Source: an uncultured Candidatus Saccharibacteria bacterium (lineage in GTDB: Bacteria > Patescibacteriota > Saccharimonadia > Saccharimonadales > Saccharimonadaceae). Taken from it: a stretch of DNA of 40,777 bases. Positions 34,627-40,280 of the stretch are shown here, one piece after another. Each line of letters begins with the position of its first letter. Position 1 is the first letter of the stretch. The translations under genes and the position numbers were made by a program. Under the pieces are notes generated by a model. That model did no database searches and was not told the origin of the DNA. It was given only the letters and a program-made list of their open reading frames with translations. The stretch is taken from the NCBI GenBank assembly GCA_937858705.1, contig CALLZM010000014.1, forward strand, positions 1 to 40,777. Direction: 5' to 3'.

Positions 34627-36262
<1,636 letters not shown>

Positions 36263-36503: not shown

Positions 36504-37109
36504 TTATAGCCCCTCGACAATGTTACGATAGTATTTCCTAAAATCGTTTTCACTCATCGTTGGTGGTTTACCCTCATAACCCTCAAGTTTTTTGTGGGAG
36601 TAGTCGTCGAATATATCCGCCATCTTTCTACCATTGAGTACGTACTGGCGATGTATGCAAAACGCCAGCTCTGGGTTTATAGACTGCTTGCCACCAGTGC
36701 CACCAATCTCTCGCTGTACGTCTTTTACGGCTTTCCAAACAGCTTTAATATCCGCCAGTGTTGTCTTGTGGCTAAAACGCATTACAACTTCATCACCATC
36801 CTGTTTGATGTGTGGCATATACTTCATACCATACGCCGCTGGAGCCTTGGCTGTGAGTAGCAGTCGTAGTGCGTTCTCTTTGCTTATATTGAACACCTCG
36901 CTTACCTCGTCGGCACAGGAGTATACTTTACGAGCATTCTCATCATCGCCCTCGACTCGCTTGAGTAGTCCGTATATGCCCATAAATACATTCTTAAGGT
37001 GCTTTTGCTCAATTGCTTCAAACTCTGAACTACGTCGTATATTCGCTAAAAGCACGTCCTGATTTCCCCTCAGGTTGGGGAGGTATGTGTGGTGGGTTTT
37101 GTCGGACAT
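36504..37109 (-). CDS. Element-encoded protein of unknown function next to the hairpin array
   Basis: A 201-aa soluble protein rich in K, R and E. The N-terminal half is helical (SEFEAIEQKHLKNVFMGIYG), the middle has DEVSEVFNISKENALRLLL, a possible helix-turn-helix, and the end reads GYEGKPPTMSENDFRKYYRN. There is no membrane segment. The ATG at 37109 is chosen because TATAAT lies 9 nt upstream; the longer frame to 37205 runs through two hairpins of the array. Its promoter sits at the edge of the hairpin array, making it a candidate hairpin-binding or replication protein. This is inference only. Confidence 0.5.
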   Translation of the reverse strand: MSDKTHHTYLPNLRGNQDVLLANIRRSSEFEAIEQKHLKNVFMGIYGLLKRVEGDDENARKVYSCADEVSEVFNISKENALRLLLTAKAPAAYGMKYMPHIKQDGDEVVMRFSHKTTLADIKAVWKAVKDVQREIGGTGGKQSINPELAFCIHRQYVLNGRKMADIFDDYSHKKLEGYEGKPPTMSENDFRKYYRNIVEGL

Positions 37110-37118
37110 AGTGCCTTT

Positions 37119-37124
37119 ATTATA
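37119..37124 (-). promoter_or_regulatory. -10 box of the 36504 gene
   Basis: TATAAT, 9 nt before the ATG at 37109 and 8 nt from hairpin 1 of the array. Confidence 0.55.
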
Positions 37125-37132
37125 CCCGAACT

Positions 37133-37425
37133 GCCTACCTGCTTCGTAGTAGGCGAGAGGCTGTTTACCGTCTTGCTTTGTAGACGGTGGCGGCACTGAT
37201 TTCACATCTTGCTTCGTAGATGTATTACAGAGGTTATCTATCTTGCTTTGAGGATGGACGTACCCCTGTTACTGATTGATGTAGCATTTACATCATAAAT
37301 GTACAGCCTCACCCATAAAGCTATCAGTAACTACCGCCTCCGCCTGCTTGCTTTGTAGCAGGCGAGGTATCTTGCTTCGTAGATACCTCATCATAGTTTC
37401 ACATCTTGCTTTGTAGACGTGAAAC
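37133..37425. repeat. Array of seven hairpins with constant 10-nt loop and variable stems
   Basis: Units: 37133-37154, 37167-37188, 37204-37223, 37238-37257, 37341-37364, 37364-37389, 37396-37425. The plus-strand loop is TTGCTTTGTA or TTGCTTCGTA in five units, CTGCTTCGTA in unit 1 and TTGCTTTGAG in unit 4. Stems are 5-10 bp, differ in sequence and remain complementary: for example GCCTAC, ACCGTC, CGCCTGC and GAGGTATC each face their own reverse complement. Unit 4 has a G-U pair and unit 7 one A-C mismatch. Between units 4 and 5 lies a nested structure: GTTACTGAT/ATCAGTAAC (37268-37331) enclosing TGATGTA/TACATCA (37277-37295). The 220-nt stretch without a gene (37206-37427) holds nothing else. 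Confidence 0.85.
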
Positions 37426-38623: not shown

Positions 38624-38707
38624 AGCAACGGCCATCCTCCGTATTACTCGATAGTGAAATAATGACAGCAAACTAAAAAGCTCGCCACCAGTGAAGCCGA
38701 AGCTCCC

Positions 38708-38779
38708 ATAACCGTTTCCAGTTATGACTATCGCAAAATAGAACTCTGATGACGAGCTGTTATTTTGCGATAGATTTTT
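38708..38779. repeat. Two hairpins between divergent element genes
   Basis: A small hairpin CATAAC/GTTATG (about 38708-38726) is followed by a 13-bp perfect inverted repeat (CTATCGCAAAATA arm, 38728-38740 and 38761-38773) with a 20-nt loop, then ATTTTTG on the plus strand. It could be a terminator-like structure, an operator or a small RNA. No plus-strand gene precedes it. Confidence 0.6.
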
Positions 38780-38844
38780 GACAACCGTGCCGCCAGTAGC
38801 GGGTTAGGTTGTATGGGGTTATTATAGCATTCAATAGGGTATTG

Positions 38845-38856: not shown

Positions 38857-39525
38857 ATGACTAGACAAAAAGCGGATAACGATGACTTAGCAGAAATCTC
38901 GGAGGTGTTGATAGATAAAGCATCAAAGGGCTTCCTCGATGCCTTTCTGGGTGAAAATGCAGCTGATTTTATAGAGTCGGTCCCAGCTGGTAAATTAACG
39001 TTAGCTATCGGTAAGCTCTTTGTTTCTGCGAAAGACCACCATAGGACCAAGATGCTTCGAGCATTCCTGAGTGGTATGCAGAGTGGGGGCAAATCATTTG
39101 ATGAGTTCAAAGAACTAGATGAGAATATGAAAAATGATTTACGTGGACTCGTGCTCGCACAATTAGATCTGCAGACGGATGAACGACAAGCAGAAGCAGT
39201 GGGTCTTATCGTAGATGCATACCTAGCTAAGAAAGTGGATTGGCTGATTTTTATCGGCATTGCTTCCGAGATAAAGAATACAAACCCACTGCTATATTAT
39301 TTCTCCGTCGATAGTTTGATGATTGACAAGATGCACACAAACTTCGGTAAACCTGTAATCAAGGGTAATGTAAAGCTGTTGCCAGCGGTTTTTTACAGTA
39401 CTTCCGCAACGGAAGGCAGTCACGGCTGGAGTGCAGTACCAGGGACAGTAGATCACCCTACGGCAATGGGAGAGGCATTCTTTAAGTATGTTTATGAACC
39501 AATGTCTGAAAAGTATCAGATATGA
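38857..39525 (+). CDS. Unrecognised protein, first gene of a two-gene element operon
   Basis: A 222-aa soluble protein. The first 130 residues are helical (KLTLAIGKLFVSAKDHHRTK, then QLDLQTDERQAEAVGLIVDA), the last 60 more strand-like, ending HPTAMGEAFFKYVYEPM, which resembles a winged-helix end. The layout recalls prophage-borne helical proteins with a C-terminal LG element, but I cannot name a family. The ATG at 38857 lies 6 nt after TATGAT; the upstream frame crosses that box. It is coupled to the next gene by ATGA. Confidence 0.55.
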   Translation: MTRQKADNDDLAEISEVLIDKASKGFLDAFLGENAADFIESVPAGKLTLAIGKLFVSAKDHHRTKMLRAFLSGMQSGGKSFDEFKELDENMKNDLRGLVLAQLDLQTDERQAEAVGLIVDAYLAKKVDWLIFIGIASEIKNTNPLLYYFSVDSLMIDKMHTNFGKPVIKGNVKLLPAVFYSTSATEGSHGWSAVPGTVDHPTAMGEAFFKYVYEPMSEKYQI

Positions 39526-40280
39526 TTGACCAGGAACGATTACATACAACTATCTTTGCAAAGCAGACGACAGAAGATAGTAAAAGTATGGCTCTAAGGT
39601 TGCAGGCGGCACAAAAAGCGGGTGAGCAATTAAAGTCCAGCGAACGAGAGGAGTATATCCACCAGGTGGCAGACTCTTTCCTGGAGATACAAGATGCTGT
39701 TGATTGCCTAGATATGGCAGAGGTGTTTTTAAAAAGCTACTCCGTATCGAAATCTTGGAAGGATCGTTATGATCAACACCACTACTTTCGATATCACTAT
39801 GAGTCTTGGGTATTAAATGCAATTAAAGTTTATGAGAGGATACTCATTCTCGTTAATAGTGTTTACTGGCTAGAAATACCCCACAAAGAAATTACATTTT
39901 TAACAGTTTCACAGCACCCGAAGCTGCAGAATACAAAGACACTACTGTTGCTAAATAAAGTACACGGTGCGTTGAGTCAATTGCAGGCTCTCAAGAACAC
40001 TGTTTTCCATCGTTATGCGTATACAGATGATGATCTGCGAACGATCAAGATATTTAGTATGCTGGCTAGGCACGGTAAGGATAAGGAACGAGTACAATTT
40101 GCCAATATAGCAAAAGTACAAATGAGATCGATTTACTTACCAGAAAAGCGTAAAGAAATAGAGAGTAACAATAAACAGATACTTAAGATCGTAGACTCGA
40201 TCTTCAACGCACTTGAACTACCTTACATCGAGCGTAGAGACGCCCTTGATAGTACCTTGCAGCTAAAACAAAAAACTTAG
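39522..40280 (+). CDS. Unrecognised helical protein, possible HEPN-like fold
   Basis: A 252-aa protein, almost entirely helical. RYHYESWVLNAIKVYERILILVN and LNKVHGALSQLQALKNTVFHRYAY recall the layout of HEPN (Cthe2314-like) proteins, where the second motif is R-x4-6-H; here a Lys or nothing stands in for the Arg, so RNase activity is doubtful. It follows the 38857 gene with an ATGA overlap; together they may be a defence or toxin-antitoxin-type pair carried by the element (speculative). Confidence 0.5.
   Translation: MIDQERLHTTIFAKQTTEDSKSMALRLQAAQKAGEQLKSSEREEYIHQVADSFLEIQDAVDCLDMAEVFLKSYSVSKSWKDRYDQHHYFRYHYESWVLNAIKVYERILILVNSVYWLEIPHKEITFLTVSQHPKLQNTKTLLLLNKVHGALSQLQALKNTVFHRYAYTDDDLRTIKIFSMLARHGKDKERVQFANIAKVQMRSIYLPEKRKEIESNNKQILKIVDSIFNALELPYIERRDALDSTLQLKQKT

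Follow-up and report, generated by a model that had tools for sequence, protein, structure and literature searches.

The mobile element at one end of a contig from an uncultured Candidatus Saccharibacteria bacterium, a minute parasite, carries seven hairpins that present an almost constant 8-nt loop on differing but covarying stems. We propose that they are repeated protein-binding RNA hairpins of an element family, which would act together as a multi-site docking or titration RNA. We give this reading a probability of about 40%. The hairpins are found at positions 37133-37425 of the window, i.e. the whole 40,777-nucleotide stretch of DNA that was analysed, on the minus strand, which is the sense strand of the flanking genes. 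A first-pass annotation had placed seven hairpins there, all of which we recovered, unit 4 being degenerate and weak.

The features of the region are as follows, with scores for the units from a covariance model of the hairpin (R1).

34627-34704: tRNA-Met, overlapped by the end of the integrase gene
34661-36262, minus strand: large serine integrase gene (PF00239, PHROG integrase)
36504-37109, minus strand: p201 gene (201 aa), no family match, candidate hairpin partner
37119-37124, minus strand: TATAAT, the -10 box of the p201 gene, with the same box here in all three array elements
37133-37154, minus strand: unit 1, loop ACGAAGCA, stem GCCUAC/GUAGGC, R1 30.7 bits
37167-37188, minus strand: unit 2, loop ACAAAGCA, stem ACCGUC/GACGGU, R1 34.9 bits
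37203-37224, minus strand: unit 3, loop ACGAAGCA, stem of 5-6 bp, R1 32.7 bits
37237-37258, minus strand: unit 4, degenerate loop CTCAAAGCAA with AACAGGGGTA ahead, R1 28.6 bits
37266-37273, minus strand: TAACAGGG-type motif upstream of unit 4, invariant across the three array elements
37268-37331, minus strand: larger inverted repeat or central domain, between units 4 and 5
37341-37364, minus strand: unit 5, loop ACAAAGCA, stem CGCCUGC/GCAGGCG, R1 35.8 bits
37364-37389, minus strand: unit 6, loop ACGAAGCA, stem of 9 bp, R1 30.8 bits
37396-37425, minus strand: unit 7, loop ACAAAGCA, stem including one G-U pair, R1 34.9 bits
37428-38330, minus strand: gene of a 300-aa membrane protein, upstream of the array
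38693-38810, minus strand: LOOT RNA (RF03000), 67.3 bits, at the same place in both other array elements

Constant loops on covarying stems

The loop core reads C-U-[ACRAAGCA]-A-G on the minus strand, the eight loop nucleotides being closed by U-A and C-G, and the stems in the window are 5 to 9 bp long. Successive units are spaced by 34, 36, 34, 105, 24 and 34 nt, and the 105-nt gap contains the larger inverted repeat that the first pass had described as enclosed in the array. With 34-nt spacing, the units do not share a common reading frame. We rejected the array as a coding sequence, as an upstream extension of the p201 frame exists in the window but not in the other array elements (open frames of 254, 204 and 201 aa across the three).

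Within the window units, 45 of the 49 stem positions are paired (Watson-Crick or G-U); when arms are reassigned between units, the best of all 1854 reassignments pairs 37 positions and the mean is 25.5. Pairing in the first eight units amounts to 82.5%, versus 58.9% when shuffled, and their covariation score is 0.696 versus 0.234, a value reached in none of 500 shuffles. All slid versions of the same units score 0.2 or less. The larger set of 16 hairpins from seven elements behaves alike, with 80.6% of positions paired versus 56.4%, a covariation score of 0.606 versus 0.182 (0/500 shuffles as high), and slid versions at 0.15 or below. Relative to dinucleotide shuffles, the region folds with z-scores of -7.7 on the minus strand and -5.8 on the plus strand, and its largest set of perfect same-loop hairpins is four, versus zero or one in 2000 such shuffles. 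The array of a related element, L089, folds as a whole no better than its shuffles (z -0.15).

The initial description of a constant loop on covarying stems is thus borne out. The statement that the stems differ completely was too strong: the arms of units 1 and 5 differ at one and two of seven positions, and those of units 3 and 7 at three and none, while differences between units reach five of seven. These two pairs are recognizable duplicates, so duplication accompanied by compensatory change has produced part of the array. The stems are accordingly related to one another, with compensatory differences. Simple duplication without covariation had been named as an outcome that would speak against selected structure; duplication is indeed seen in part, and the stems nevertheless covary.

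Wobble pairs bear on the strand. U-G pairs in the sense orientation, found in unit 7, in L088a and where the loops of unit 1 and L088b are closed, are more frequent than A-C combinations in that orientation, of which there are two, both in unit 4. This excess gives mild support to an RNA of the minus strand, the counts being small.

Related arrays and a single hairpin within a gene

We searched R1 against 295 genomes of the family, in which larger groups were represented by a sample. The motif was found beyond the window, and all matches above 26 bits fall in one gene neighbourhood. All the relatives that carry it belong to one family-level group, on fragmentary contigs; since the genome searches sampled the larger groups, further members probably exist. 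Two other elements have arrays, L088 (genome G463) and L089 (G435), with two to three clear units each. Both show the order of the window, namely LOOT RNA, membrane-protein gene, array, p201 gene and integrase gene at a tRNA, and their p201 homologues are 60 and 63% identical to that of the window. Aligned, the three arrays read hairpin, middle hairpin, TAACAGGG, hairpin. The three clear units of L089 all carry the same A to G change at loop position 5 on different stems, as could be expected of a trans-acting factor that holds the loops alike; gene conversion could have the same effect. The central domains of L088 and L089 share a D-arm-like string, GGTAGAGCT, with no tRNA match. For the window we rejected a tRNA mimic in this domain, its score of 19.8 bits being below the gathering score and the match absent from relatives.

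Four further elements harbour a single hairpin, within the first 20 codons of a gene for a protein of ~150-164 aa: L050/L021 (G036), L051 (G352), L052 (G034) and L090 (G015). This gene lies between the membrane-protein gene and a p201-family gene, except in L051, which has the hairpin and no p201. An operator-like position near the start codon thus recurs among these elements. All four genes, one of which is far diverged, agree at each of the six hairpin codons (T-A-T-K-Q-A), versus 12 of 39 codons for the other conserved residues (P=0.002). The motif ACAGRGGTA precedes the hairpin in L050, L051 and L052, and it is also present in L234, though not in L090. L234 belongs to a fifth element, from G410, with a 164-type gene and a p201 that is 56% identical to ours; its site has ACAGAGGTA and, after it, a hairpin of 7 bp whose loop is not the usual one (shuffle frequency 0.005). 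Covariation, codon-level identity and the hairpin kept in G410 together argue for selection on structure and loop.

Unit 4 (CTCAAAGCAAG) matches the single hairpin of the 164-aa gene in both its position and its upstream motif. The single-hairpin elements yielded no LOOT RNA. In L049, a paralogous element of the genome to which the window belongs, the gene is present but lacks the hairpin stretch, and there is no p201.

Other searches returned little. Elsewhere in the window's own genome the exact 11-base loop core turns up just twice, each time without a stem, and we therefore rejected a host-wide regulon. Of the matches inspected from a wider loop search in 60 relatives, a single one was a real hairpin, the rest being at about control level. 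In viral contigs we found neither a two-loop array nor an exact copy of the coding hairpin, and no relative of p201 or the membrane protein; the 87 matches to a motif-plus-loop pattern in them resemble chance and were set aside. The phage and plasmid collections searched gave no match. Three head-to-tail 55-nt repeats with a TTTGCTTTGTGG core were seen at L078 1501-1638, in an unrelated genome (G151), and their structure differs.

A proposed docking RNA, p201 and the competing explanations

In the window the array is intergenic and part of a mobile element, as the first pass had deduced; it lies between the membrane-protein and p201 genes of an element with a serine integrase gene at tRNA-Met. 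It ends, again as described there, at the promoter of the 201-aa gene, whose TATAAT box is separated from the ATG by 9 nt. A TATAAT stands 1-13 nt before the start codon in each of the seven p201-family genes examined. This gap, seen in L052, L050, L090, L234 and the window, implies leaderless or near-leaderless mRNAs. Because the box separates the array from the p201 start in all three array elements, the array is not the 5' leader of p201. Thus, of the suggested 5' or 3' mRNA locations, the former does not hold for p201; by its placement, the array would either follow the membrane-protein gene on its 3' side or form an RNA of its own.

A p201-family gene adjoins the hairpins in seven of the eight hairpin-bearing elements, in keeping with the linkage suspected for the protein encoded at 36504, and on this ground p201 is the leading candidate reader. 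That it may bind RNA is a guess from adjacency. Pfam, NCBIfam, PHROGs and PADLOC gave no family for it, and its structure model, of poor quality (pLDDT 55.5), resembles no fold in the PDB; it may yet have a remote fold. Loop and p201 do not diverge in step: the p212 protein of L090, only 26% identical, goes with an unchanged loop, unlike the 56% identical p201 of G410, which is paired with a different one.

A constant loop on interchangeable stems indicates that the loop is read by something in single-stranded nucleic acid. We infer that this is RNA, considering the shared strand with the genes, the U-G wobbles (in small counts) and the operator-like place of the coding hairpin. In the docking or titration model, the octaloop ACRARRCA closed by U-A and C-G would be the part recognized in each hairpin; the stem would merely present it and so could drift by paired changes. 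The ancestral state was probably one hairpin located ~30 nt into the ~150-164-aa gene preceding p201. Array elements would have lost the 164-type gene but retained its hairpin site, together with the ACAGGGGTA motif, as unit 4; duplication would then have added more hairpins and produced a multivalent transcript 3' of the membrane-protein gene. Descent of unit 4 from the coding site, followed by gene loss and duplication, appears to be the simplest history. A protein, with p201 as the leading candidate, would bind the loops. In the upstream mRNA, the single copy close to the 5' end would then serve as an operator for translation or stability, and the many copies would dock or titrate the loop-binding protein, as CsrB-type RNAs do for CsrA.

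We consider somewhat unlikely the more ambitious proposal of a previously undescribed RNA-based control system of Patescibacteria elements, with p201 as an RNA-binding family that has a loop-specific hairpin code, using a single mRNA operator in some elements and a multivalent array by LOOT in others. The hairpins offer a clean natural case of loop-constant, stem-covarying units whose number rises from a single copy within a gene to an array of seven, in bacteria whose mobile elements are almost unstudied. A defined RNA ligand of the form stem-ACRAAGCA-stem would provide a handle on the function of the orphan p201 family, and the array would be a second structured RNA next to the orphan LOOT RNA.

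Among the roles offered by the first pass, RNA docking or titration is the likeliest. We judge rather improbable a single-stranded DNA function, in which the array would be an origin or a site for primase loading or transfer, and a replication protein of the element would read the loops while the strand is unpaired. The elements integrate, so that they should also pass through an excised DNA stage. At L128 5269-7210, a distant p201 homologue adjoins an AAA_25 replicative-helicase-like gene and a LOOT RNA, a neighbourhood that may hint at a link of the p201 family with replication. Rolling-circle origins typically have nick sites with a conserved loop on stems that vary between replicons, usually with one site per origin. 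Seven sites would be unusual for an origin, and neither p201 nor the other flanking genes matched a Rep or HUH family in this element, which is truncated by the contig end. A hairpin within a conserved reading frame is also easier to understand as an mRNA structure, and the sense-strand wobbles weakly favour RNA.

The hairpins could instead be a mutational by-product of tandem duplication and quasipalindrome correction by template switching, with loops alike by descent and no selection. Quasipalindrome correction perfects imperfect hairpins, and the duplicate pairs 1/5 and 3/7 fit such a process. We find it quite unlikely, since the coding hairpin is codon-identical even in a far diverged gene, loops are retained across elements despite the turnover of flanks and stems, and the site in G410 still holds a hairpin, with an altered loop.

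Type III antitoxins are tandem RNA repeats (PMC8860590). Most units here are spaced 34-36 nt and directly precede a small gene of no known family, and such repeats might neutralize its product; the ~35-nt tandem units of ToxI, AntiQ and CptI before a gene for a ~200-aa protein are a fair likeness. However, the repeats are not near-identical, their stems differing between units, some elements have one hairpin inside another gene, p201 matched no toxin family and the gene has its own promoter box. We thus regard a type III-like toxin-antitoxin system as very unlikely.

A guide-RNA array, with stems as spacers, is largely excluded. TIGR arrays, found in Patescibacteria, consist of tandem units of ~36 nt in which variable sequence flanks a constant loop repeat; dual-repeat TIGR arrays alternate edge and loop repeats with ~9-nt spacers, and no obvious covariation is seen between TIGR spacers A and B (PMC12045711). 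Our array shares the ~36-nt unit length, the constant loop repeat and the variable flanks, but it has one repeat type only and its flanks covary strongly and are complementary to one another. Dual spacers and box C/D motifs are features of the stem-loop TIGR units. The Nop domain (PF01798) gave no match in the whole genome, with control archaea positive; the poor p201 model leaves a remote Nop fold possible. CRISPR arrays combine near-identical long repeats with unrelated spacers, in contrast with a shared core of only ~12 nt around which the flanks pair, and the first pass had rightly seen no CRISPR fit.

Other structured elements and the host element

The array is set apart from every known family tested here. 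Rfam gave nothing above the gathering score over 37133-37425. As also foreseen, it does not resemble intrinsic terminators, there being no GC-rich stem followed by a T run within it. A cassette-recombination role finds no support here. Integron attC sites have R and L boxes, flank gene cassettes and work with IntI; compared with them in spacing, gene content and integrase type, the units are 24-36 nt apart with mostly no gene between them and the integrase is serine-type.

CsrB and RsmZ present the same short loop on many hairpins to one RNA-binding protein, which also has single sites in target mRNAs. By analogy, our array would work most like such docking RNAs, with several hairpins (seven in the window, two to three clear ones in L088 and L089), one short loop and putative protein binding. 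Nevertheless, it is element-borne and has the 8-nt ACRARRCA loop, without the CsrA-bound GGA motif or CsrA.

The LOOT RNA is likewise structured and, in each of the three array elements, precedes the membrane-protein gene. It differs from the array in being a separate RNA that is widespread in the phylum (83 of 380 genomes sampled). There are up to seven copies per genome, and several of those inspected are in integrase-bearing elements. Same-loop arrays were not found at the other LOOT loci fetched, which are short, by a strict test that also missed L088 and L089.

The host element is best read as a member of a family of tRNA-integrated, serine-integrase mobile elements of Saccharibacteria. 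It runs off the contig end; an att copy of the tRNA end was not found in the window, and the other boundary was not located. A HEPN_Cthe2314-type gene (39522-40280, plus strand), divergent from the LOOT operon and adjoining a 238-aa gene of no assigned family, is possibly element cargo. The second, related element of the same genome (L049, contig C21, 3363-9661) contains an integrase as well as remnants of a second one, a protein consisting of an FtsK gamma domain only, and a membrane-protein homologue of 304 aa. Small proteins with this DNA-binding domain and no motor are encoded at L051 10359-11000, L050 3526-4146 and L049 7086-7421, where they adjoin membrane proteins in single-hairpin or related elements.
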